Assembly: GCF_000787575.1 (NCBI RefSeq)
Contig: NW_012236511.1
Coordinates: 248,001 to 312,000, forward strand
From: Acytostelium subglobosum LB1
Lineage: Eukaryota > Evosea > Eumycetozoa > Acytosteliales > Acytosteliaceae
Length of the DNA stretch: 64,000 nt
Direction: 5' to 3'
Positions 5,069 through 54,500 of the stretch are shown here, one piece after another (position 1 is the stretch's first letter; each line of letters opens with the position of its first letter). Below the pieces are notes generated by a model, which saw nothing but the letters and a program-made list of their open reading frames with translations, did no database searches and had not been told where the DNA came from. Both the position numbers and the translations under genes were made by a program.

Positions 5069-8000
5069 ATGACAACAAGGATGCATAATGTCTTGGACAT
5101 TGAAGAGACATTCTCTTCAAAGTTGACATTGTCAAATGACGGAAATGGCAACAACGATGATATACAACAACAACAACAACAACCATCATCAACATCAACA
5201 TGTATTAATAACAACAACATCAACAATAATAATAATAATAATAATAATAATACAATTATATATGATAATAGCGATAAGATGAGTGTTGCAGACTTGAAGA
5301 GACAATTGAACAAACAGTTGTCGGAACAATTGATGATGACGACACCAAAGCAGAAGCCAGCACCAGCACCACGAGTACAGATATCACCATCATTCCAATC
5401 GTCGGCCGATGACTCGGCTCAGGTCACCATCCTGCCGCCATCCCCGCCACTCACATCAACAAGCCATCATCATAATGTTGCTGGTAACGCCAATCAATCT
5501 CCTCCAACACAATCACAACAACAACAGATATATGTACAACAAGTAGATCATCAATATCAACAACAACAAGTACAATATTCAGCGTCTTCTCCACAATATC
5601 CATCAAGTCCGGCGACGTCAAAGAAGCCATCGGCCAATCTTGTGCCATTCAAACATAAGCCATTGCCACTGCCTGGTAGCCCAGACTCATCTCCCGTCCA
5701 CTCACCTCCAGTTCCCCGAGCCAGACCACCACCACCCGGACGACCACACCTTCAGCAACAGCAACAGCAGCAGCAACAGCATCAACAACAACAACAACAA
5801 TATGATGATATTAATGATCAATTGATCATTCCAAGGCTTGACCTATACACAAGCCTGGCAGGCAGCACTGAGGAAATGATGAAGGCAGTATCAAACAACA
5901 ATAACAATGAGAGCAGTGACAGTGACGAGGAGTTGACACAAGAGGCATCCAATCGACTTGAGGAAGTCTCCAACCGAACAAAGGACTCACCTCGTCTGGT
6001 GTTTGAGTCCAAGTCAATCCCAAGCGAGATCACTATCCGCATGCTGTTCTCGTCCAGTCCCGGACTGAGTATGTCGACGCCCAATGTCACATCGCTCACC
6101 AACAGTCCGATGATGTTGTCATCCACACCGACAAAGCAACAGCAGCACCAGCAGAGGACTGTAGACGATCATAAGGATACAAAGCGAAAGGATGCCACGC
6201 CCATCAACAAGTGGAAGTCCACACCCAATATGGCGTCGCTGACGCCGCCCTCGTCGCCACTGTCTCCGTCATCTCCGCCACTCACACCCAACGCGCACTG
6301 CCACCAGGCCGAGAAGCACTTCAAGCTGTCACCATGCTCGACCGTCGACGAAGTTCTGTCCATCGCCATCCCCAACCTCATCCACCATCGCGGCCTACAC
6401 AACGCAAGATACACCAGCAACGAAGAATGGGAGACAGACATAAACCTGGGCGACTTTGAAGAGACAGTCAACAGCAGCATCGATAACAAACAACAACAGG
6501 GACAACAACAGCAACAGGGACAACAGCAGTCAAGTACACATTATAGTTATGCACTCTTCCGTCAGGTCGACCCGCTGACGCCTCTGCACAAGGAGCGCAC
6601 ACTGCTCGAGCTAGCGGTCAGGGAGTTCGAGCCACTCGAGCTAAAGACGGTGATACTGAACGTGATCTTTGTTAAGATACACATTCCGGGCTTCTCCGAG
6701 GGCCAGCTGCCCGCGCAGGCCATGCTCAAGCTGACGCAGTTCACGTCGATTCGCTCGATCATTCGCAAGCTGTGTCTCAAGTTCCACACATCGGTCGACA
6801 TCTCCCAGTACGGCATCTTCCTCGTCAACCAGAGCCACAACACCGAGATCATGCTGGACGAGGACGAGCTGTTCTCCACGTATCACATCTCGTCCCAGTC
6901 ACATCTCATCTTCCGCAGTCTGTCGCAGCTGACCGACACCACCATCATCCAGTCCAAGTCTCTGCAGGTCAAGATCCTGATCACAACACACAGCTCCCGC
7001 TTCAACTGTCTCACGCTCAGCTTCGACCCCAGCACCACCGTCTCCAAGGCCATCAAGATCACTGGTCTGCGCACAGGTCTCCTGGACAGCCTTAACAAAT
7101 GCGGCTTCTTCCTCACTCCAAGCGATGACGATGATGATGGATTCTGGCTGGACGAGGACATGACCCTTGAGTCTTATCACCTTAAGAACAATGTAAGTGT
7201 TGGAGTTGGATGATGCGCGACTGATAGATGGTCGAGGCTAACTCATCAATCACTCATTCAAACAGACAACTGTTGAGTTTAAGCAACGATGCAGGAAGTA
7301 TGTAGTGTCGATCAAGTCAAGGGACGTGAAGTGTACATTTAAATTCGATCAGTATGTGACGGTGGCCTCGTTGTTCCGCATGATTGTGCACAATGAGAAC
7401 ATTGCCAACGATAAGAACTTCTGCCTGGCGTTCAGAGACAATGGCGCCGTGCTCGATCAGAACCGCTCGTTGTGGTCCTACGATAATGAGAAGGAGATCG
7501 AGTTCAAGGAGCACCCCAACCGCCTGTACGTGTTTGGCAAGGATGGCGAGCAGAGCCTGGTCTATGTCGACTTTAACGACCCGGTCGAGGATGTCTGTCG
7601 CAAGCTATCGATCAACATGGGTATGCCACCCACACGTTCTCGCGCCTACACCCTCAAGAAGCTGGGCGAGGCTGAGAACGACATCAACGCCAAGATGACC
7701 CTGAAGCAGGTCGGCCTGCAGCCCAACGACAGAGTGATGTTGGAGATCCAACCAAAGGCTAAACCAGCCGCGACATCAACACCCATAGGCGACACCACGA
7801 CTACAACAACGACAACGACGACAGCAACTACAGCAACAACGACAACAACGACGACACAGGATAATGATCAATCTGCTGGAGCCGATCCAGTTGATGATGA
7901 GGAGGTGATTGCACGCGATGGATCGTCATCGTCATCATCGTCGTCGCATTCGTCACTGACACTGGTGGTGCCAGACTCGGAGCAGCTGGACCAACGCACG

Positions 8001-9562
8001 ATCTCAAACATCTGGGAGGAGCCGGCCGACTCGCCACTCAACATCATCTACGCCAAGACTGCGCCAACGCCCGACAACCCGTACCCAGCGATCGAGGCGG
8101 GCACACTCAACAAGCTGATCATCCGTTTGACGTCAGAGAACACGCACGACCTCATGTTCATGAAGGCGCTGCTCATGACCTACTCCTCGTACACGACGCC
8201 ACTCGTTCTGCTCGAGAAGCTCATCGAGCGTTTCAACGTGCCGACCAACGTCGACATTGATGAGCGTGAGAAGATGTCCATCCAGCTGCGTGTGGCCAAC
8301 GTCATCAAGTACTGGGTGGAGCATCACTACGAGGACTTTGGACACAGCACTACGAACAAGGTCGTGGAGTTTGTCGACAACCTGATACCGGTCACGGGTA
8401 CCAAGTTCCGCGATGCCATCCTGAAGCGCACGTGCATGATCAAGGGTGAGATGTCACGGACCAGGAGCAACGGAACGTTCACATCGCCACGCCCCTCTGT
8501 CAACTTGTCTAGCTCGCTCGAGCTGCCGTCGTCGCCCGTGCCTGTGATGGCTATCAAGTCCAACAACAAGAGGGGCAAGGACGCCGCTGGCAACTCCCTC
8601 TCTTCATCACCTCGCAAACGTCCAGAGTCGCGCATGAAGGGCATCAAGAACCCGAGCACTATATTCGACTTTGATGACGAGGAGATTGCCCGCCAGCTGA
8701 CGCTCTACGACTTCAACATCTACTCATCGATCAAACAGACCGAGTTCCTGAACCAGGCGTGGAACAAGCCGGCTGTGGCCGCCAAGAAGTCGCCACGCGT
8801 TCTCGAGATGATCAATCGATTCAACGAGGTCGGACTCTGGGTCACCAAGCTGATTCTGGAGCCGGATCGCGTAAAGACGCGTGCCAAGCGCATGGAGCGT
8901 GTCATCAAGATTGCCGAGAAACTCAGGGAGATGAAGAACTACAACACTCTGATGGCATTCCTTGGAGGCTTGAACAACTCTGCCATCCTGAGGCTCAAGT
9001 ATACCAAAGCAATTGTTGGAAGGAAGTACTTGGAGGTAAGTTAAGATAAGAGCACGGGGGTGGCCAGTCCCTTGGCCTCAACGCCAGTATCAAGTTACAG
9101 TTGACTAACTTCCACTCGCTCACTCACTCATCCACAGGCACTGGAAGACTTGGAAAAGGAAATGAGTTGCGAATCATCCTACAAGACATACAGAGAGTTA
9201 CTGCATAACACTGATCCACCTTGTGTCCCCTACATGTAAGTCAATCAAACATTCATCCCTTAATCACAATCACTCACTTACAATCAAACAATTATAGTGG
9301 AGTATACTTGACAGATCTTACATTTATAGAGGAGGGCAATCCCAATATCATTGGCAATAACTTGATCAACTTTTCAAAGTATACATTGATGTATAAGGTG
9401 ATATCAGAGGTTCAACAATATCAATGGTCCGAGTACAATCTGCATCCAGTCAATATCATCCAGTCGTTCATCAGCAATCTGCAGCCACCCAACGTGGAGG
9501 CACTGTATCAACTATCACTTCTCAAGGAGCCACGCAATGCACTAAAGTCCGATATCTATTGA
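5069..9562 (+). CDS. Ras guanine nucleotide exchange factor with talin-F0-like domain
   Basis: Four exons (5069-7192, 7266-9035, 9138-9235, 9298-9562) give 1,418 residues. Residues 1-480 are disordered, with Gln, Asn, Ser and Pro tracts. Residues about 530-830 hold ubiquitin-like folds; the segment LSFDPSTTVSKAIK...CGFFL...GFWLDEDMTLESYHLKNN followed by TVEFKQRCRKYVVSI closely follows the talin F0/F1 pattern. After a Thr-rich linker come the RasGEF N domain (NIIYAKTAPTPDNPYPAI...GTLNKLIIRLT) and the catalytic CDC25 domain, recognisable by IARQLTLYDFNIYSSI, MAFLGGLNNSAI and [20 protein letters not shown] across two introns. It should activate a Ras-family GTPase in the cytosol or at the cortex, with the talin-like part as a probable Rap/Ras or membrane docking module. 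All exon joins are in phase and the catalytic domain is complete. Confidence 0.93.
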
Positions 9563-41697: not shown

Positions 41698-42892
41698 ATG
41701 TTTACCACTACCATCTTAATAATAATATGTCTATCCACCAGCTTGGTATCAATCACAAACTGTATGTAATGCCCGTACATATTAACTATCTGATCAGCTG
41801 ATTAATTGTTTCCTTTTTTGGTAATGATCAGCTGATCAGCAAATTTTCGGGATCATCCATAACTAACTCTTGTCCAAACGTTCTATCTTCTTTGTTCTCT
41901 CTTTCCTAGGTCAACTTGGAGGTATTGGCGGACTGATAGGAGGAGGAGGCTCCTCACCTTATAATCCATGTGCCTCTTGCAACAGCCACGACAAGTGTTA
42001 CTCCGATGTTTGTTCAATGTCCTCAGGATGTTTCCATAATCCAGTTGGTTGTGATGATAATAATATCTGTACGATTGACTCGTGCCATCCAGACACTGGA
42101 TGCATTCACACCCCAGTCAACTGCGGCCCATCGACCAACGGTACTCTGGACTACTGCGACACCAAGCTGGGCTGCCTGCACGTACCATACATCTGCTCCA
42201 ACGAATCCACCTGCGACACCAACAACACCAGCCAATGCGTCGATCAGTTCATCAAGGATGGCAAGTGCTGCCAGTCCCCCAAGTCCTGCAACGACTACAA
42301 CGCCTGCACGGCAGATGGCTGCCACCCAACCACCGGTTGCACACACACCAACATCACATGCAACGACAACAACCCTTGCACCGCCGACTCATGCTCGCCC
42401 ACCTCAGGTTGCGTCTACACCCCAATCAGCTGTGACGACAACAACAAGTGCACACTGGATAGTTGCAGTGCAACCACCGGCAACTGCGTCCACACTCCAG
42501 TCAACTGCAACGACGGCAATTCCAACACAATCGACACCTGCCAGCCCAACATTGGCTGCATCAATCGCCGCGTAAACTCTTGCAATGACAGCAACGCCTG
42601 CACTGTCGACACGCTCAACATCGCCACAGGACAATGCTCATACGCACCAAAGCAGTGTCCAGCCAGCACATTCTGCACTCAGTACGTGTGCAACCCAGTG
42701 TCTGGCTGCCAGGTCGTCACACCAAACTGCGACGATGGCAACCCCTGCACGACCGACGTCTGCGACTCCTCCAGCATGTCCTGCAAGCACATCCCAAAGA
42801 GCTGTTTCGATAACAACCGATGCACATCCGACACGTGCAATACATCTACTGGTCAATGTGTCTACAGCCCAATATCCAACTGTACTCTATAA
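41698..42892 (+). CDS. Secreted protein of Dictyostelium CTDC cysteine repeats
   Basis: Two exons (41698-41761, 41910-42892) give 348 residues. Exon 1 encodes a signal peptide (MFTTTILIIICLSTSLVSIT). After a Gly-rich spacer come about eleven repeats of roughly 24 residues with the pattern CDDNNxCTxDSCxxxxGCxHTPxxC, the Dicty_CTDC repeat found in ecmA/ecmB-type extracellular matrix proteins of stalk and slug sheath. No membrane anchor or GPI signal is visible at the C-terminus, so it is probably a secreted matrix or sheath component. Compared with ecmA and ecmB it is short. The 148-nt intron carries two related TGATCAGCTGAT palindromes. Exons are GC-rich and use preferred codons, suggesting strong stage-specific expression. 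Confidence 0.9.
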
Positions 42893-44609: not shown

Positions 44610-46113
44610 TTAGTTGTTTCTGGTTCTTCTTCTTCTGACGATGACTACAGCCAACACTGCAACAATTATAGCAACTCCGGCGACGACTCCAATGACAATA
44701 CCAACGATGGCACCAGTGCTGAGATCCTTTGACTTGCAAATGTCAGAGTGATCACCGTATACCGAACATCTACTCTCGATTTTGCAGTTCATCAAGTTGA
44801 CTCCAGCATTATTGACAACATTGTTGAATGTTATGCTTCCTCCACTGCACTGGATGAGACTGCTGTCTGGCGTGGGCAATGTGCTGTTCGAACTGGTCAC
44901 ACGGTTCTTGTCAAAGACAACATTGGTGAGTGTGACCTTGCTGGATGACAGTTCAACGACAAACGAGTCAACCAAAGTGTTGCCAGACAATGTACTGTTG
45001 ATCATTGTTGCATTCTTGCTGTTGTAGAGAGCCACAAGTCTACCGTCATTGCGTACGGTATTGTTTGTAACTGTCATGCGCTCAATGTACGCGGGTCCAC
45101 GGCTACTCACAACAAATGACGCGTTGATGTTGCCGTCAAAGATTGAATCGGTCAGGTGAAGCTGAGACAAAAAGTTGCTCACAATGGCGGTGTTGTGGTA
45201 GCTGTACCTGGGATCAACTCTGGCGACGTTCTGGTTGAATGTGCAATTGGTGATGATTGTTTGGTTGTTGGAGTCAGATCCCTTCACACTGATCATTTCT
45301 TCGTCAAAGGTGTTGTTGGTGAAGGTTGAGCCTGTGATCAATGTGTGGGCAGTGTTGGTCAAGATTATTGTGTTGACAATGTTGTTGGTGAACTTAACAT
45401 TGTTGATAGTGACATCATAAAAGAGAGTCCAAACAATTCCTCCCAGGATTGTTGCGGATAAGTTATGATTGGAGATCTCTCCACCATTCATGATAAGTGA
45501 TGGCCTTGAAATATTGGATGACGGTAGATTTTCATACGTGGTCATCATGATTGGAGTGTAATAGACCGATGGAGTCACACTGGTGAACGAGACATTGTTG
45601 AGTTCCACAGACAGGCCATATCCATTCGATCGGACGGACACATCGATCAACTTGATATTGTTGATCTTGACATTGGTGATGCAGTTTGGATAAGTTGCCA
45701 TTCCATCAACAAATAAAATATTGGGTGATGCGCTGAAGTCCATGACCACGTCATATTTGGATGATGATGGTAGTGTTGAAGGTTCAAAGGTAATGTTGGT
45801 GCAGGGAATGGGGACTCGGGCATTTCCAAAAGTATCATTGATAAGATGAAGTGGCAAGTATGTGCCTGGATTCATTATAATACGGAGTGATGTGATGTTG
45901 GAGTTGAGTGAAACAAGGTAGTTGAAAGATTGGATTGTTGCGGTGATGTTTGGACAAGCCAAGTTAGTCGATGATTCCAATCCACATACTAGCGATGTAT
46001 TAGTTGATAATGGATCAACATATAATATTGTTGGGGTGGTAGTTGATTGACAATAATTTATATATAAAGTACAAACAAATAAAGTTATATAATATTTGAT
46101 TATTTTTAATCAT
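44610..46113 (-). CDS. Beta-helix surface protein with C-terminal membrane anchor
   Basis: A long reverse-strand frame, open from about 46105 to the stop at 44610. The ectodomain of about 430 residues shows right-handed parallel beta-helix turns (pectin-lyase type) with many Asn sites: TNIKFTNNIVNTIILTNTA, GSTFTNNTFDEEMISVKG, NATMINSTLSGNTLVDSF. A membrane helix (AIVGIVIGVVAGVAIIVAVL) and tail RRRRTRNN follow. The natural start is ATG 46113-46111, which would give a signal peptide (MIK, then YYITLFVCTLYINYCQS) only if one base is dropped from the A5 run at 46102-46107. I infer a one-base homopolymer error. It lies next to another solenoid-like surface protein, so the two may form a small cluster. 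Function unknown; adhesion or recognition is possible. Confidence 0.75.
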
Positions 46114-46385
46114 TTTTGAAGATTAGAATATATATATATATTTATATTAATAGTTATAATTATTATTTGATTAAATGATCTTACTAAAACCACTCGAGTG
46201 AATATTTATATCAGAAATCTATCACTGTCCGGGAAATAATATATTAAGCAACATATGGGAGATACCTTTTACATTACTTTTTCGGAAATATTGATAAGTC
46301 CAAAAGTAACCGATACTTGACACATCTCTATTTTTCCTGGGTGTCAGGTACCGCGCACTAACTTGTGTCAGATCAGAAAGCACTG

Positions 46386-46419
46386 ACACCCACCTGAGGT
46401 AACACCCACCTGAGGTAAC
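46386..46419. repeat. 16-bp direct repeat x2
   Basis: ACACCCACCTGAGGTA occurs twice head to tail. Confidence 0.85.
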
Positions 46420-46517
46420 AAGAGTTTCGGGGGGTAATTTCCGTGGGTAGCCAGCTTCACCTGTTCGAGACCCTTGGCGTAGCAGTTAGTTATTATTTTG
46501 ATTTTTGCGAATTAAGT

Positions 46518-46573
46518 GTGTGAGGGTATGTCTGTGAGGGTATGTCTGTGAGGGTACGTCTGTGAGGGTATGA
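46518..46573. repeat. 14-bp tandem repeat x4
   Basis: TGTGAGGGTATGTC occurs four times with one C substitution and a changed last unit. Confidence 0.9.
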
Positions 46574-46614
46574 TGTCTCTTATGTGTATCTATGATTGTT
46601 ATTTATTGGTTATG

Positions 46615-47001
46615 TTATATTGTAATGTCATCACTCTGAGAAAGAGAGTTTAGATAGGACTTGCGTGCATCCTCTGGCCTAACACGTGGTAGTTTGAATG
46701 ACCGAGGATCAAACTTCAATGTGTTAACGAGGGACAGGGGCAACAGCGATTGGTGGTTGGACAAGATCCATTGTAGGTAGGACAGCACGAATACACCACA
46801 GTTGATAGTGTCCTCTGAGTGTTGATGACCAGTGTATATTGTGTTGCCGTGTGCACGCGAGATGTTATCAGTGCCAAATGTCAGATTGCTGATAATGAGG
46901 TTGCGGTACGTGTGGTCGATGTTTGCTGTTGTAGTGGGGCCATTCTTTTTATGCGCAAAGCTATCGACAATGTACTTCCACGTCCATCCTCTTGGGTGGA
47001 A
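46615..47001 (-). CDS. Ulp1-like cysteine protease, C-terminal part (5' end in gap)
   Basis: The reverse strand encodes about 129 residues from the gap edge to a stop at 46615. It has FHPRGWTWKYIVDSF, then NTIYTGHQHSEDTINCGVFV, where NCGVFVLSYL is the catalytic cysteine block of Ulp1/SENP-type (C48) proteases. The upstream His-Trp and Asp part of the catalytic site falls at or inside the N gap. C48 proteases of this sort are often carried by eukaryotic DNA transposons and large mobile elements as well as being host de-SUMOylases. The surroundings (tandem repeats, gap, AT-rich island) favour a mobile-element origin, but this is inference. The 5' end cannot be reconstructed. Confidence 0.6.
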   Translation of the reverse strand, partial: FHPRGWTWKYIVDSFAHKKNGPTTTANIDHTYRNLIISNLTFGTDNISRAHGNTIYTGHQHSEDTINCGVFVLSYLQWILSNHQSLLPLSLVNTLKFDPRSFKLPRVRPEDARKSYLNSLSQSDDITI

Positions 47002-47101
47002 NNNNNNNNNNNNNNNNNNNNNNNNNNNNNNNNNNNNNNNNNNNNNNNNNNNNNNNNNNNNNNNNNNNNNNNNNNNNNNNNNNNNNNNNNNNNNNNNNNN
47101 N
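47002..47101. other. Assembly gap (100 N)
   Basis: Exactly 100 undetermined bases, a conventional scaffold gap of unknown true size. It removes the 5' ends of the fragments on both sides. Confidence 0.99.
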
Positions 47102-47507
47102 AGCTGGCATGAAGGTGCTCGCTCAGACGAACCATGAAGGAGACAAGGATACATGGTGGGAGGGCGTCATCGTCTATGATCACTATCCCAACTACGTCGT
47201 CAAGTACAACCATAGGAAGTATCGTACGTCTGAAGAAACTGAACTCGTTCGAGTTGAGAGACTGCGGCTAATCAACAAGATACAGCTGACACAAGACGAT
47301 GACGTTTGCTTAGGAATGGATGTGCTGGTGTTCTATGACTCCAAGTACTACACTGGTCGCATTGTTGACGAGAGTTGTGGTCACATATCTACTGCCTCTG
47401 GAAGAGTAACAAAGAAGAGAAGGATACTGAAGAAGAGTATTACCATATATATATCTGTAATCAATGTTCATCACGATGCCAAATGGAACACACTGTTCAG
47501 ACTTTGA
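47102..47507 (+). CDS. Tudor/Agenet-like protein fragment (5' end in gap)
   Basis: A forward frame of about 134 residues begins in the gap and ends at 47507. It contains two related segments, GMKVLAQTNHEGDKDTWWEG followed by VIVYDHYPNYVVKYNHRKYR, and GMDVLVFYDSKYYTGRIVDE. The pattern (G-x-V-L-A/V ... W-x-G-x-I/V ... Y-x-V-x-Y/F) resembles Tudor or Agenet beta-barrels that read methylated histones or RNA. A GTATTA donor and a TTCAG acceptor at 47503-47507 could extend the gene by a short exon. It may belong to the same mobile element as the protease fragment, or be a host chromatin protein. I am not sure of either. Confidence 0.45.
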
Positions 47508-47747
47508 TCTCATCAACAACACACTCAATACAAAATAATTCAAATAAATGCAAGAATAATCTTATCGCTCATACAACTGGTCATTGCGGCCCGCACACTC
47601 AGTTGCCAAACCTGCCGCACAAAAATGAATTCGACTCTAAGTCGATGAATCTCCCACAGGAGTTGTATGCGTGGACACCTCCACGATTAATTTGTTGTGC
47701 TCATCCTCTAACCTCAACTTCCTGTTTATATATATATATATATATAT

Positions 47748-48047
47748 TCAATTCAACACACCTTTCTCCTGGTGATTGTTCTCTGTGTTTCCAATTGGTC
47801 TGTTTAGTGTGATGAATGAGTTTGCCACTGGTGCTGATGATTTGCTTATTGTTGGTTGCGGTGTTTGGGCGACATCGCCATCAACCTCCTCATCATCCTC
47901 CTCGTTGTTGGAAACTTTTCTGGATGTGGCAGCCTTCTTGTTGTTCTTCATTATACCCCATCCCTTTGTTATTACCCTCCAATGTGTAATTATGTACCCG
48001 CCAAAATCTATCTGAATTAATAATGATGATACTTTACTTATATTCAC
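47748..48047 (-). CDS. Hypothetical short acidic/basic protein
   Basis: A reverse frame of 99 codons with internal ATG at 47951. The part MKNNKKAATSRKVSNNEEDD and the following Pro/Gln/Ser-rich tail looks like the disordered N-terminus of a larger protein or a fragment of a mobile-element protein. No homologue is recognised and no continuing exon could be found. Kept only because its composition is less repetitive than that of the flanking DNA. Confidence 0.25.
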   Translation of the reverse strand: MNISKVSSLLIQIDFGGYIITHWRVITKGWGIMKNNKKAATSRKVSNNEEDDEEVDGDVAQTPQPTISKSSAPVANSFITLNRPIGNTENNHQEKGVLN

Positions 48048-48528
48048 AATAGTTAATCATATCCCTAGGGATCATTCACAATAGTCAATCATTCAAATTA
48101 TTCATTTTTGAATATTTTCAGAATATATTATACAAAAAAAAAATATATAGTTTGATTGTAACAAGATATGTATTTAACACTTACCTTAATCAATAAGTTA
48201 GTTGTTTGATATATTTTTTTGAATAATAAAACAGTTACTCAACCTTCCTCAATTCAAAGTCAGGGAACAAATATCCATTTTTGTACCATTTGAGGTAGAC
48301 CACATGACTTCGTCTTTCGTTAGTTAGTGAAAGTTCCCTCCATGACCCCAATTCATTGATTGGTTTTGGGAAAGAGTCTTCAAAGAAAGAAAAATGATGA
48401 TGGGTGTCCAAATAATAACTTGGAGATTGAGCTTCCTTAAGTGAATAGTTGTTTGTAATAAATCTAGATCAATTAGAATTAAACAATCATAAAAGGGATT
48501 ATTATGGTGAAACTCATCGATTTTAATG

Positions 48529-48962
48529 TATGAAATATATAACTAAATTTAATTCTAAAAATTCAAAATAAATATATCTTGTACAATAAATAAATTACTA
48601 TAACATATATTAATTTCATTATCAGGAACTTAAATTAAGACCATGTCATAGACAGGTAACAACTTTTTACTATTTTTTTATATTTTAAAATTACTGATTT
48701 AAGCATTTCCCTTCAATAGCGTAATCTAGTTACAAAAATAACTTTAATAAAATATATTTATAAATATTTTAAAACATAAAAAATTTTCAATCGATCAAAA
48801 AAAAATACTCAAAAGTTGTTACCAGTCGATGATTTCTAGATTTAATATCTTCTTCAAATTTAAGTTCATGATAGTGACATTCATATATGTTATAGTTCTT
48901 TATTTTATGTATAAGAAATATTTATTTTAGATTTATACAATGAAATTTAGTTATATACTTCG
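48529..48962. mobile_element. Foldback / MITE-like element with long inverted repeats
   Basis: Two arms of about 150-165 bp lie in opposite orientation around a spacer of about 115 bp. Left arm 48529-48681, right arm 48798-48962. Corresponding blocks, read from the outside inwards, include TATATAACTAAATTT (left 48535, right complement near 48957), ACTATAACATATAT, GAACTTAAATT, and GGTAACAACTTTT near the loop. The arms match imperfectly, with substitutions and small indels between blocks, so they are old. There is no coding capacity. A non-autonomous foldback or MITE-type element, or a hairpin small-RNA source, would explain it. Confidence 0.75.
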
Positions 48963-48965
48963 TTC

Positions 48966-48966
48966 G

Positions 48967-49018
<52 letters not shown>
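48966..49018. repeat. TTGA tetranucleotide run
   Basis: About thirteen uninterrupted copies of TTGA, the longest run of this widespread motif in the window. It abuts the right arm of the inverted repeat. Confidence 0.95.
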
Positions 49019-49019
<1 letters not shown>

Positions 49020-49200
49020 CGCTATCGATATCTCTGACTTGAATATAGATTATTTGAGTATATAATGAGATAGAGTGTTGTTGAACAAATAATGTATTAA
49101 TGAATGAGTTAGACCACCTAAAAGGGACTGATAAGGCCCTTATCTATCAGATACATCTGATCTATCCGACCGAACACCAATTTATTGATATTGGGCGAAA

Positions 49201-50592
49201 TTGTTAGATACCCGTACTACACTTGTCAAAAACGGATCATGCAAGAAGTCATATTCAACCTTCACTGCAGTATATCAACATTGCGTTATAAAGCATGGAT
49301 GCCCGTCAACGTATGCGACATGTCCAAACGATCGATATTATCGCGCGATACACACCACCTGTTTCAACTTCTTCAAGACGAATGAAGCCAGACACAAGTA
49401 CATGAAGAGGAAGATCGGCGATCATCAATGTGCCAATCGTAGCAGCTGTCCACACCGACACAATGATGGCAAGGGCCACAGAATCGTCCGATAAATACAA
49501 TGAGCACGCTGCTGGTAATCTTGACAATCTCCCGCTGGTGCTCAAGATGTGCATTTGTAATAACGACCATTGTGACAAGGAGTACAGGGGCCCCTACAGC
49601 GTGGCCACTCACTGCAAGATCGCTCACCTTTGTCCGGGCACTTACGCGACATGTCCAAACTATCGCATCTACCGCACCAAGAAGCTGGCGATGCCGGATG
49701 ACCCGGCGTCCATCAAGATGATGTTGGCCGATGGCTTAAGGCCATGCCCAAAGGATTCATGCTACCGGTACTTCTGGGATGCTCTATCAATTAAGAAACA
49801 TATCAAGAGTCAACACGGGAGGTGGAGGATGAAAGAAAAGACACTCGATGCCGACGACTGTAATGGTGATGGTCTAGATGATGAGGATAGTCATGATTAA
49901 GATGATGAAGATGCAGGTGATGATGATGAGGAAGATGACGATCAACATGATGATGAAGTCACAGAGCCGATCAAGATGATGCAGACTGATAGCCAGAAAG
50001 AAAAGAAGGAACAACATCGACGTGGCAGCAACAAACGACACTCTCCCAACGGATGCCAACACCAGGATTGCAATCATTCAGAGATAGAATATGCCAGGTT
50101 GCGCAAGCATTGCAGAGTGACACATAAATGTAGTTGGAGGTACGCGGAATGTCCAAACTACCAGACGCACTGCAAGAAAGCATTCAAAGCTGATTTGGAT
50201 GACCAAGAGTCCATTGCAATGTTGCTGGCCAGAAGATTCATAAGGTATACTCGCACCACCTGTGGACACTACTTTGTCACCAGCAGTGCCCTGCACACTC
50301 ACCTGATTCAGTATCATTTCAATGATGACCAAGACAACATAATCGAACAACAGGTTATTTCAAGGCAGAGAACAACATGGATATGGATATGGACATGGAC
50401 ATAATCTCACGATGTCCTCATGTTGGTTGTGATCAAACTGGACCACTGGATGAAATGATCGTTCATCTTGACATGAACATAAGTATCCAACATTGTTGCC
50501 AACACCTCATCATCAACAACAACATTGTGATGGATGCCAAATGGTTGGCCAGGGTGCCGATTGGCTGCTCATCTGAACCTCATGTTCAATAA
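49201..50592 (+). pseudogene. Broken gene of tandem Cys/His zinc modules
   Basis: At least three copies of a ~110-120-residue module lie in tandem. Each begins with a finger of form C-x4/5-C-x12-H-x4-H followed by a conserved block: HCVIKHGCPSTYATCPN (49270s), HCKIAHLCPGTYATCPNY (49610s) and HCRVTHKCSWRYAECPNY (50110s). Each unit then has a second C2H2-like finger (CPKDSCYRYFWDALSIKKH; TCGHYFVTSSALHTHLIQYH). A fourth partial unit starts CPHVGCDQTGPL at 50412. Units 1 and 2 are in different frames (shift near 49440-49490), units 2 and 3 share a frame but are separated by TAA at 49898-49900, and unit 4 is again shifted. I do not know this family. A DNA- or RNA-binding role is inferred only from the zinc-finger form; the region may derive from a mobile element. 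Confidence 0.6.
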
Positions 50593-50713
50593 AACCGAAA
50601 CCTATTCTGACACCAAGTCATCGCAACCTTGTCAACACTTTGAAGTTTTTGATGATCATTCATTCACTTTACACACTTATCTTTATAGTTATACATATAA
50701 AGATAAGACATTG

Positions 50714-51092
50714 CATGGAACGTAGTAGACATGTCTTTGAAGTAGGAGGAGAGGACAAAGTCAAGTTAGTTTGTCTAACTTGATCTCTAGAGTTGATTGT
50801 TCTTCAGATGCGATCGCGAACTCAGGGTACTGCAAACTTTGTCATCAAAGTCATGGGCAACTACAACAAACAAGTATGTATGTTTGATGAGTCATACATT
50901 TACCTCAATCATTCACTTTCATTTGTGATATATCTCAACTCAGCTCATCAATCAGTCGTACAACAACAATCTGAAAATTCGAGTTTGTCCACACAAACTT
51001 GGAAAGTAGAGTTTGTTCCAACTTTAATCCACGCTCAATCAATCAATCAATCATCAATCAATCAAGCATATATATATTTAGCAAAATTATAA
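50714..51092 (+). CDS. Possible small Cys-rich gene (low confidence)
   Basis: From ATG 50714 the frame reads MERSRHVFEVGGEDKVK; removing GTTAGT...CTCTAG (26 nt) joins it to VDCSSDAIANSGYCKLCHQS, and a second intron (GTATGT donor at about 50874, acceptor before 50942) would add HQSVVQQQSENSSLST. The Cys/His spacing resembles a short zinc site. The first intron would be very short, and the end runs into TCAATCAA repeats, so this is tentative. It may be a further remnant of the Cys/His locus just upstream. Confidence 0.25.
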
Positions 51093-51159
51093 TAATAATA
51101 ATACTAATATAATATATATATTTATATAGATATAGACAAAGAGATATAGAGATATTGAG

Positions 51160-51474
51160 ATGGATGTTAGATTGGTAATAACATTAATTATATTACTTAT
51201 TATTTTGATAAGGAAGGTGTTCAAGATGCATACAAAGAGAGATTTGATAAGATGGGCAGACACATTCTCAATGTTGAAAGATCCATTATCAAAACAACCT
51301 GTAAATATCAAGACAAAACTGGACAAATACATCATCAAGACACAACCGCCAATCGATGCCGCCAAAAGTCAGGAATCAACTCTCCAAGCACTCGTCAACA
51401 AGACCCATGACCTGACCTACGTCTTTTACCTCTTAATGAGGATGGATATGTATGTTTACAAAGTCCACACTCAC

Positions 51475-51514
<40 letters not shown>

Positions 51515-54500
51515 CTAACTAACTCAACTTAATAGTACCATTAAAGATGGAATACCCGACAAGTATCAATACTTTGCCGAAGTCGTGAGGAAGTCCCTTC
51601 TACCCGGCTACAAACTCGAGAGACCTAGTAATTTCGAGGATGTGTTCTTTATATTCTTATTAACTAATCTTGATAAAGATCGACTCGAACGACTTGAGCC
51701 CAAGATGAAGAACCTGTTGGTAGACATTGTCGTCTACTTCATTGACCAGAGTGATATGGACACTGACCTCAACATACTAGAGGTTCTAAAGGCGTTAATG
51801 TCATCTGGTTGCAACATGGATGTGTTGGCCAATGACGTTTGTGGTATGAAGAACAAGCTCACCTTCCTAAAGTTCTACATCAAGCACTTCATCCTTGATG
51901 TTGATGCCTCATCAGGAGTTACCAACGTACGTCGTTCTTTGTCCTTTCATCGATAGGCCGGGGATCGCTTGCTAACCTAAAACACAAACTAATCTAATCA
52001 AATAGAGTGAACGCAATATGGATATACTAGTCCGTATGACAGAGATATATAGTAAGAGTCTAGCCAACAATGATATTAAGACGCCAATCAATCAAAATGG
52101 TTGGAAGCATATCGGTGATCTCTTGGTCGTGAGAATTCGTAAGCCTTTCATTCAATCAATCATTATCATTCAATCAATCAATTGAGACTAATACCATTAC
52201 TCGACGACCCAACCGACCAATCATAGAGAATATAAAGAGTATTGTAGAACTCAAGCGCCTGTTGAAATTGAACCTTACGTTCAAACTAGAATTGTGGACA
52301 AACGTACTTCATCGATGCTTCTTTGTTAATTATCCAAAGGACTACGTCATTTACCTCGAGAATGAGGAGAATTACATTCTCGAGGCCATTGGAGAAACTA
52401 TCTATTCCATGGTACCATTCGCAGAACTAAATGATTGGTATGTTATTCATTCATTCATTCATTCATTCATATACTAATCAATCTGTCAATGAACCAATCA
52501 ATCATTAGTCTACTCCAATGTGATAAGTTCTACTATATGCTCAAGGGCAACATATTGAAAGAGAGGAGCATTGACTTTATCCCAATGGACAACAAGTTGA
52601 AGATACTTGGACTGGGACCATCTGACAAGCTATGCATCATATATCTTCAAGATCAGATACTAAAGACCACCAAAGATCCTGCCACCTACATTGAGTTCCT
52701 CATCAAATACCCAAATATCACCTATCCCATCAGGGAGGATTTTGAAGTAAGTTGCACTCCCTCTCTCAATCACTCAATCACTCACTCAATCACTCACTCA
52801 ATCACTCAATCGCTCACGACACATTAATGAAGGACGAGGAGTATATTGGAGAGTTTGCCAAAGAGTTGGAGCATCGCCAATCCATTGATGTAGCATTGTC
52901 AAAGGATGGAAACCAAACATATTACCATTATTGCCAACATTTTGCCAAGGATATGGTTGATGTTGTGAACTATGACAAGGAGTTTGGATATCCAAACTGT
53001 CTACTCAACCTACTCTATATCAACAGGATCATGCCTGATCTCATCACTGACGTTCAATCCAAGACCATGACCATACCTCTCCTTCATCGTATTGATCATC
53101 TCCTATCAATGTCAAGGAAACAGCCAGGTGAGCCATCACACTGGAAGGCGGAGACCTCTCAATTCAACATTTACAAGACACAGGTAAGTTGAAGTGTTCG
53201 TTCATTCGTCCATTCATTCAATCAAGTATACTAATATGGACCCTCACGTGATCAAAATAGCTACTTGACTCTATGAAAGGAATCATTACCCATTTATCCA
53301 AGGAGTATGATGGTACTCTGGAGAGGAAGAGTTTGTTGGAATCAATCAACTTGATGTTGACAAGGAGATATGGTGCAGGAAAGTCCATCATTACAACTTT
53401 GTTTTTGTTATTCTTAGTTCACGACAAGTTGACCAACATGTACTCTACACTCATCCAAGCACTCAATGCCCTATCCCCCATGTTTGTCATCAACACCAAC
53501 AACAACGCCAGTAATGACAGCAATGACTGCAATGACTATAATGACATGATAATGACCAACGATCAGTTGAAGACTAGGATTAATGAGTTGTCCCATCAAG
53601 AGACATTCACAATGATCAATCAATCATCACATCAGCTCATAGTTCACTTCAAGATCAATCACAAAGTTGACGCCAACAACAACAACATCAACAACATCTT
53701 CGACATAGTACTTCGATACTTCGTCCAACAATCAACAATGCCTGGCAAGAAGATTAACATGGACCATGTTTGCCACTGTACCAAGCAATTGATGGTGGAC
53801 ATCATCAACAAGAAGGTGTCGACCAATGTCGGTCCTGACCTCTACAAACAGTTGTCCGAGATCACCAACGCTGCCAACTTTGACGAGCAGCTCACTTTCA
53901 TGTATGTACAATGACCAACCTCTGTTCATACTCGTTCGTGCTCACTTATACTAACCACTCAATCAATCAACAAAGCATCCACTACCTTGGGCAAGATTCC
54001 AGCAAAACGATCACAGAGAATGACATAGGAAGCATCATGTCTTTCATCAGGGACGTTATATCCATTCATGGATATGACCAGAACCATGACGCATTGTTTG
54101 CATTCATCAAGTCCAACCAATACTTGAACTCAGTCATCATTGATTGTGATGAGAGCAGGAGTAGGATCATACAGATGATCGATCACTATCATGCTAATCC
54201 CAATGCCAACGACATCAGTGATCAGATTAAGAAGGAGCTTGGTGGAATGGACTACCAACAACTGGACATCTTCAGACATCTGCCGCCTCACCTGTTGGCA
54301 TTCCTTGACCACCATATACTCAACTTCAACCTTGCGTCCATTGCCATTCAATCAAACATTGCGCTCAACCCAGCAATGGCCACACTCTTTGACAACACTA
54401 AACAAGTCTACACGATATTGGAACCAATCACATCAATCACTGTATTAACGATATGTGATCTGTGTGAGTCTATTCGCAACAGGATGCGATCAACAGAGTT

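Follow-up and report, generated by a model that had tools for sequence, protein, structure and literature searches.

A duplicated family of C2H2-like multi-finger genes with fast-changing helix positions, and a putatively decayed member, in a social amoeba

In the poly-zinc-finger genes of mammals, according to the accessible part of PMC2604467, replacement falls mostly on helix positions -1, 3 and 6 and less on positions 2 and 5. Expansion and contact-position replacement of the same kind are described for the FiNZ genes of fish in the excerpt available of PMC10547256, where zinc-finger targeting of transposons is called 'likely to be a metazoan innovation'. The diversity of C2H2 fingers has likewise been presented, in the accessible text of PMC5588721, as exclusive to metazoans and as explained by extra binding energy from non-contact residues. 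For dictyostelids, the corresponding portion of PMC6873476 counts 103 C2H2 factors, and that of PMC8535579 lists zinc-ion binding among the terms enriched in lineage-specific expansions, the same portion naming no amoeba zinc-finger family; in the part of PMC12714135 at hand, C2H2 factors are counted and called a less well defined family. Fast change of DNA-contact residues is a pattern described mainly in animals, and among the titles listed by our search of the literature, which covered mostly open-licence papers, there was no description of the family reported here or of fast-evolving finger contacts in Amoebozoa.

The window analysed here is a stretch of 64,000 nucleotides (G000:C35:248001-312000) from the genome of Acytostelium subglobosum LB1, which comprises 30.7 Mb in 56 contigs. 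On the forward strand, between 49.24 and 50.58 kb, it holds three degraded double-finger units, read in two frames, and a C-terminal module. The units are those proposed in an earlier reading of the letters without database searches (hereafter the sequence-only reading), and they were found at 49240-49452, 49556-49822 and 50054-50320. Unit 1, in frame 3, consists of a module A remnant (49240..49344), aligned with units of the related loci L034, L037 and L032, and a module B remnant (49345..49452), likewise placed by alignment. The former retains C...HC-x3-H-x-C...YATCPN and is without the first Cys of CxHxxC; the latter is also without its first Cys and keeps part of a Cys tail (HQCANRSSC); approximately 24 residues between the two are gone. 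Both C2H2 cores are present in unit 2 (frame 1), the His of CxHxxC is replaced in both modules (CNNDHC and CPKDSC), and there is no Cys tail. An acidic Asp/Glu-rich linker follows at 49853..49966, as acidic linkers do in the relatives, and has a TAA inside it (49898-49900). In unit 3, also in frame 1, the first Cys of module B is replaced. The C-terminal module is divided between a first part, RCPHVGCDQTGPLDEMIVHL, at 50410..50469 in frame 3, identified by comparison with L034, L037 and L032, and a last part at 50502..50576 in frame 2, which ends in CDGCQMVGQGADWLLI followed directly by a TGA stop codon (50574-50576); the relatives end alike. A 35-nt repeat with the YAxCPN block occurs three times, at 49300, 49631 and 50129.

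Several details of the sequence-only reading can be refined on this basis. Its end point of 50592 was right within 20 bases. The single TAA that it reported is there, whereas the two shifts are in fact three frame changes, one separating units 1 and 2 (3 to 1), one near 50350 (1 to 3) and one between 50469 and 50502 (3 to 2). The units also bear lesions, namely the deletion in unit 1, the lost His in unit 2 and the lost Cys in units 1 and 3.

When the open reading frame (ORF) of L034, a gene at C36:414686-416725, was compared by tblastn with positions 46001-53000 of the window, the match had E = 1e-47, far beyond chance. Searched against the genome, unit 2 of the window found 59 matches at E <= 0.001, three of which were the window's own units. 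Both results bear out the sequence-only reading of a repeat family of double Cys/His modules. The window copy is nearest to L034 by tblastn and in a tree of 42 units, in which support is given as ultrafast bootstrap/SH-aLRT. Unit 3 is the sister of L034 unit 4 (99/84), and unit 2, on a long branch, pairs weakly with L034 unit 2 (87/61); the top tblastn piece places it on L034 unit 3 instead. On either placement the window copy appears to have lost one middle unit relative to L034. In all 12 listed comparisons of window units with paralogues dS was at least 1.3, in six of them beyond estimate, so that the dN/dS of the window copy is saturated, and no row is listed for unit 2 against unit 3. As judged from its sequence, the window copy is an L034-like gene that has become a pseudogene.

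The surroundings of this copy include ordinary neighbours, such as a RasGEF gene at 7242-9041 of the window, and at 41867-42889 a Dicty_CTDC repeat protein (PF00526, 'Dictyostelium (slime mold) repeat', E = 3e-59). An ORF fragment on the reverse strand at 46648-46875, which we take to be C48/Ulp1-like, lies beside a run of 100 N (47002-47101) and has a 99% identical match inside a 521-aa ORF at C37:561752-561979; it may be part of a mobile element of recent origin and low copy number. Positions 48525-48968 form an imperfect palindrome of 444 bp, the 112-nt arms of which are 83% complementary.

The family has further copies in its own genome. With a unit of L042 as query 66 genome matches were obtained at E <= 0.01; the C-terminal module yielded 18 at E <= 0.05, among them two that are other modules. 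By our own count from the searches there are 19 family loci on seven contigs, with 14 of the 19 in two clusters: eight on C36 (183-466 kb) and six on C47 (42-119 kb), while C35 (the window), C40, C48, C54 and C56 have one each. A full member contains up to four two-module units and acidic linkers in which a basic motif resembling KRKR is common; the last residues of its C-terminal module are mostly WLLV or WLLI. Eight of the 19 loci (L031, L032_554, L034, L037, L038, L040, L041 and L042) have an uninterrupted ORF, 497-741 aa long, that encodes both finger units and the C-terminal module; in L031 the first finger is not preceded by an ATG. A further two ORFs (483 and 439 aa) extend to the C-terminal module without a proper start, and the remaining loci display one TGA, frame changes, truncations or a single module. 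With open members standing beside TGA-bearing, frame-broken and truncated loci, the family shows both duplication and decay. Units in the same position of different genes cluster together in the 42-unit tree (98/95 for first units, 99/98 for second units), and therefore whole multi-unit genes were duplicated. An all-against-all blastn comparison of 13 loci and 10 kb of the window (pieces of at least 60 nt) found similarity between loci confined to the family ORFs and to flanks of about 100 bases. Runs of three or more consecutive basic residues near an acidic stretch, recognised by eye at 12 or more of the 19 loci, suggest that the products may be nuclear proteins.

In L033 (C36:308556-310601), otherwise a long member, one TGA interrupts the frame at the codon of a conserved Cys, that of the HC motif; the gene seems to have died recently. 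Selenocysteine at this TGA was considered and set aside for a nonsense change, because the TGA of L035 stands at a place where a Cys would not be expected. Within the C36 array an inverted piece of a family unit (L032, 3843-3941 versus 7257-7347) lies beside a truncated gene, a sign of rearrangement between tandem copies. L046 (C47:104896-105411) is an ORF with a single module A (C-x5-C-x12-HC-x3-H-x-C...CPN), in which no module B was seen, and is either a small founder-like gene or a remnant. L040 is flanked by two genes similar to each other (C48:131109-132764 and 135853-137499, 76% in DNA), both oriented opposite to it, which by eye resemble B-box plus kelch proteins.

Module A has the form C-x-H-x2-C-x12-H-C-x3-H-x-C-x6-C-P-N and module B, with some variation, C-x-H-x2-C-x12-H-x4-H-x-C-x5-C-x2-C; a conserved block DDTxSIxMxLAxG (about 27-30 residues) is located between them. 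Both resemble C2H2 fingers (C-x4-C-x12-H-x4-H) and have in addition a further His (CxHxxC) and three further Cys. The second C2H2-like finger noted in the sequence-only reading is thus present, and in most relatives it is followed by a Cys tail, C-x5/6-C-x2-C, that window unit 2 is without. Ligand invariance in our alignment of 41 units is not counted as evidence, since the pattern by which the units were collected itself demands most ligands. Positions free of the pattern are nearly invariant as well: the Cys of HC and an Asp of the middle block in 41 of 41, and the His of CxHxxC in 40 of 41 A modules, the sole exception being window unit 2 (Asn). The C2H2 ligand spacing, C-x(2-5)-C-x12-H-x(3-5)-H, was assessed in 38 A and 43 B rows, for which the pattern demands x12 and, in B rows, x3-8 between the His, one of the 43 being a misparsed A module. 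The spacing is that of C2H2 fingers, with independent support from an omega of 0.016 for ligand codons in rows not chosen by pattern. Helix position 4 is hydrophobic (L/M/V/I) in 37 of 38 A modules versus 23 of 43 B rows, and C+4 is aromatic or hydrophobic in 41 of 43 B rows versus 26 of 38 A modules; the predicted C2H2 hydrophobic core is good at A helix position 4 and at B C+4, and partial at the other two.

The best matches among solved structures were GLI (E = 6e-4 for the whole sequence, no single stretch being significant) and YY1 (E = 0.05). That no named domain is known with this signature, as the sequence-only reading had it, agrees with the Pfam scans, in which no model, the C2H2 models included, rose over its cut-off in the window's zinc-finger pieces or the 10 long ORFs; a genome search with PF00096 listed four matches, all on C51 and none at a family locus. 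The Pfam cut-off sets a limit of detection and is not a property of the structure, and to call the units an ordinary known C2H2 family would be half true: the fold core is C2H2-like, the extra ligands and the Pfam score are not. No KRAB or other named N-terminal accessory domain was among the Pfam matches listed for the 10 ORFs at E <= 10, in a scan whose HMMER filters drop most matches above about 0.1. No relative of L040, the single query protein, was confirmed in the viral or prokaryote collection, and window unit 2 had no match among phages. Four proteins searched against NCBIfam and PHROGs gave nothing credible; the best hit, which covers 24 residues of L034 at E = 0.0023, is to a PHROG of unknown function.

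A tailed module has eight conserved Cys/His, twice the need of one zinc. In a hand-curated set of B-type modules, the His of CxHxxC is kept in 61 of 63 tailed versus three of nine tail-less modules (Fisher p = 1.4e-5), the nine being partly kin and several sharing one tail loss by descent; in the uncurated automatic table of 78 rows the counts are 55 of 57 tailed versus 12 of 21 tail-less (p = 6e-5). Curation dropped four rows that were in the wrong frame, came from another domain or were misparsed from module A, left out the frame-broken L036 row (CDQSEC) and an L040 C-terminal row with one Cys missing, and moved to the tailed class six rows in which the Cys is present at another spacing. The residues that replace this His in six tail-less modules are all different (I, V, Y, L, D and Q), suggesting separate losses. 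Module B of window unit 2 (CPKDSC) is tail-less and without the His. That the absence of the tail goes with loss of the His suggests a second zinc site, which would be formed by the CxHxxC His and the three Cys of the tail.

Helix positions -1, 2, 3 and 6 are the DNA-contact positions of C2H2 fingers. These were set beforehand in a codon likelihood model by site class (our own implementation), which was applied to paralogues of one genome. Among the listed pairs of the five-unit subfamily (subfamily 1) dN/dS was 0.33-0.52 rather than near 1, with 0.38 over 672 codons for L040 and L041. For this subfamily, represented by seven rows (L031, L033, two L036 loci, L037, L040 and L041) and eight modules, omega was 0.016 for ligand codons, 0.41 for the remaining finger sites, 0.49 outside the fingers and 0.93 at helix positions 1 and 5. 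At the contact positions it was 1.54, which is above 1 (p = 1e-4), above the other finger sites (p = 3e-26) and above positions 1 and 5 (p = 0.004). Of the 495 possible four-position sets between Cys and His the contact set ranked second, the first being 2, 3, 5 and 6 (1.55). Taken singly, the positions gave 1.20 (-1), 1.87 (2), 1.59 (3), 1.56 (6), 1.29 (5), 0.62 (1) and 0.27 (4), so that position -1 alone is not above 1 and position 5, no main contact, is among the fast ones. Contact omega varied by module from 0.53 to 3.9, falling below 0.7 in two of the eight, and was 1.85 in A and 1.32 in B modules. It was 1.44-1.53 in five leave-out sets (p 0.0003-0.005 versus 1) and 1.62 when a ninth module was added (p = 7e-6).

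With only the four uninterrupted genes (L031, L037, L040 and L041), contact omega was 1.19 and not above 1 (p = 0.25); the contacts still exceeded the other finger sites (p = 2e-11) and not positions 1 and 5 (p = 0.11). Subfamily 2, with three rows from L032 and L035 and seven modules, had a contact omega of 0.96, not above 1 (p = 0.84). This exceeds the 0.37 of the other finger sites (p = 3e-5) as well as the 0.41 of positions 1 and 5 (p = 0.015), but position 3 of this subfamily was slow (0.48). Since omega is not above 1 in either of these data sets, relaxed constraint on exposed helix residues may apply. Rearrangement of paralogues, which is seen here, and possible gene conversion can inflate such codon tests. 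The suggestion of a rapidly evolving family, made from the window, agrees with the fast evolution seen in this genome.

What the window copy represents can be judged from these results. A functional gene, expressed by way of introns or frame changes, would explain why the C-terminal ending is intact to the last residue, yet the three frame changes and the TAA show, by eye, no AT-rich intron-like gaps at these places, zinc ligands are lost in all three units, unit 1 is partly deleted, and there is one middle unit fewer than in L034; of all the readings we give this one the least credence. The sequence-only reading had entertained a part of a mobile element, the binding protein of a transposon with an inverted repeat and a C48 protease, and it is true that the C48-like ORF is approximately 2 kb away and that the palindrome adjoins. 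However, homology between members stops at the ORFs or within about 100 bases, with no shared element ends; a second copy of the palindrome was not found in the genome (by a search that skips very common words); and the one other match of the C48-like ORF is on C37, a contig with no listed family member. On these three grounds the transposon was rejected, and with many members being multi-unit single-ORF genes in clusters we hold it to be very improbable.

For the family as a whole, the modules could instead be zinc domains that bind protein or RNA, such as TAZ-like adaptors, and the fast helix positions would then be simply exposed and weakly constrained. The C-x4-C ... H ... C ... C-x2-C of the modules recalls the spacing of TAZ domains, the extra Cys after the second His would suit such a role, and a contact omega not above 1 in subfamily 2 and in the four uninterrupted genes of subfamily 1 is what relaxation predicts. 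Yet no TAZ model was among the matches listed in the Pfam scans of the 10 long ORFs or the 41 units (a TAZ search of the genome gave zero matches, as did its controls, and so carries no weight), omega is above 1 in subfamily 1 with all seven rows and in the five leave-out sets, and the fastest positions are nearly the C2H2 DNA-contact set. We consider adaptors of this kind unlikely, if conceivable. The fastest residues are largely those with which C2H2 fingers read DNA, and they occur in clustered, duplicating genes, which we read as the mark of retargeting DNA-binding regulators. From the sequences at hand, it is probable that this is a lineage-expanded, DNA-binding multi-finger family selected to change its targets and that it includes the window sequence as a decayed member.

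In this retargeting family each module would fold as a C2H2 finger whose helix reads DNA, and the His of CxHxxC together with the three extra Cys would hold a second zinc that braces the finger. The proteins would be nuclear regulators, perhaps repressors, duplicated and selected for new DNA targets, and duplicates no longer of use would decay, as the window copy would have done. By analogy, the best reading is that the family would work like KRAB or FiNZ genes, built on a new finger variant, with mobile elements as the obvious guess for its targets. A bolder proposal, which we advance as speculative and doubtful, is a diversifying zinc-finger defence that arose in a social amoeba independently of animals, in which a nuclear family of two-zinc fingers, clustered and of rapid turnover, would silence changing mobile elements; there, the added zinc site would brace the fold so that the DNA-contact residues are free to change. 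A dictyostelid family with fast contacts and an added ligand set would allow both metazoan-only ideas to be tested outside animals. Because standard Pfam models miss this class of finger here, dictyostelid C2H2 counts may also be too low.

Compared with canonical C2H2 fingers (PF00096 and PF13894), the modules share C-x4-C-x12-H-x4-H, the hydrophobic C+4 and, in A modules, the hydrophobic helix position 4; they differ in the CxHxxC His and the three extra Cys and score below the cut-off, so that PF00096 misses the family in its own genome. The zinc finger of FOXP proteins has the spacing of module A, C-x4-C-x12-HC-x3-H. Six of the 41 units gave a weak, non-significant match to the FOXP-CC model of Pfam (best E 0.049), whereas no forkhead domain was among the matches listed for the 10 long ORFs. 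Tandem CWCH2 fingers (Zic, Gli and Zap1), as presented in the accessible part of PMC2837044, resemble the amoeba units in that C2H2 fingers come in pairs and one residue enclosed by the two Cys is conserved, and GLI is the best structure match. That residue is Trp in CWCH2 and His in the amoeba A modules (40 of 41), and the amoeba units have in addition the extra Cys and a conserved block between the modules. The likeness to the KRAB-type and FiNZ families, as far as the excerpts of the sources go, is one of a lineage-specific expansion of multi-finger genes, with replacement concentrated at the DNA-contact positions of the helix. Excess replacement at the contacts was found in subfamily 1 with all seven rows, while in subfamily 2 the contacts only exceed the other finger sites. 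In contrast to KRAB, FiNZ and ZAD proteins, the amoeba family has no KRAB or named accessory domain among the Pfam matches listed, its fingers have extra ligands and are spaced in two-module units, and its host is not an animal. Since no accessory domain is listed and the finger has added ligands, the amoeba family is not a member of the KRAB-type or FiNZ families, like which it appears to work.
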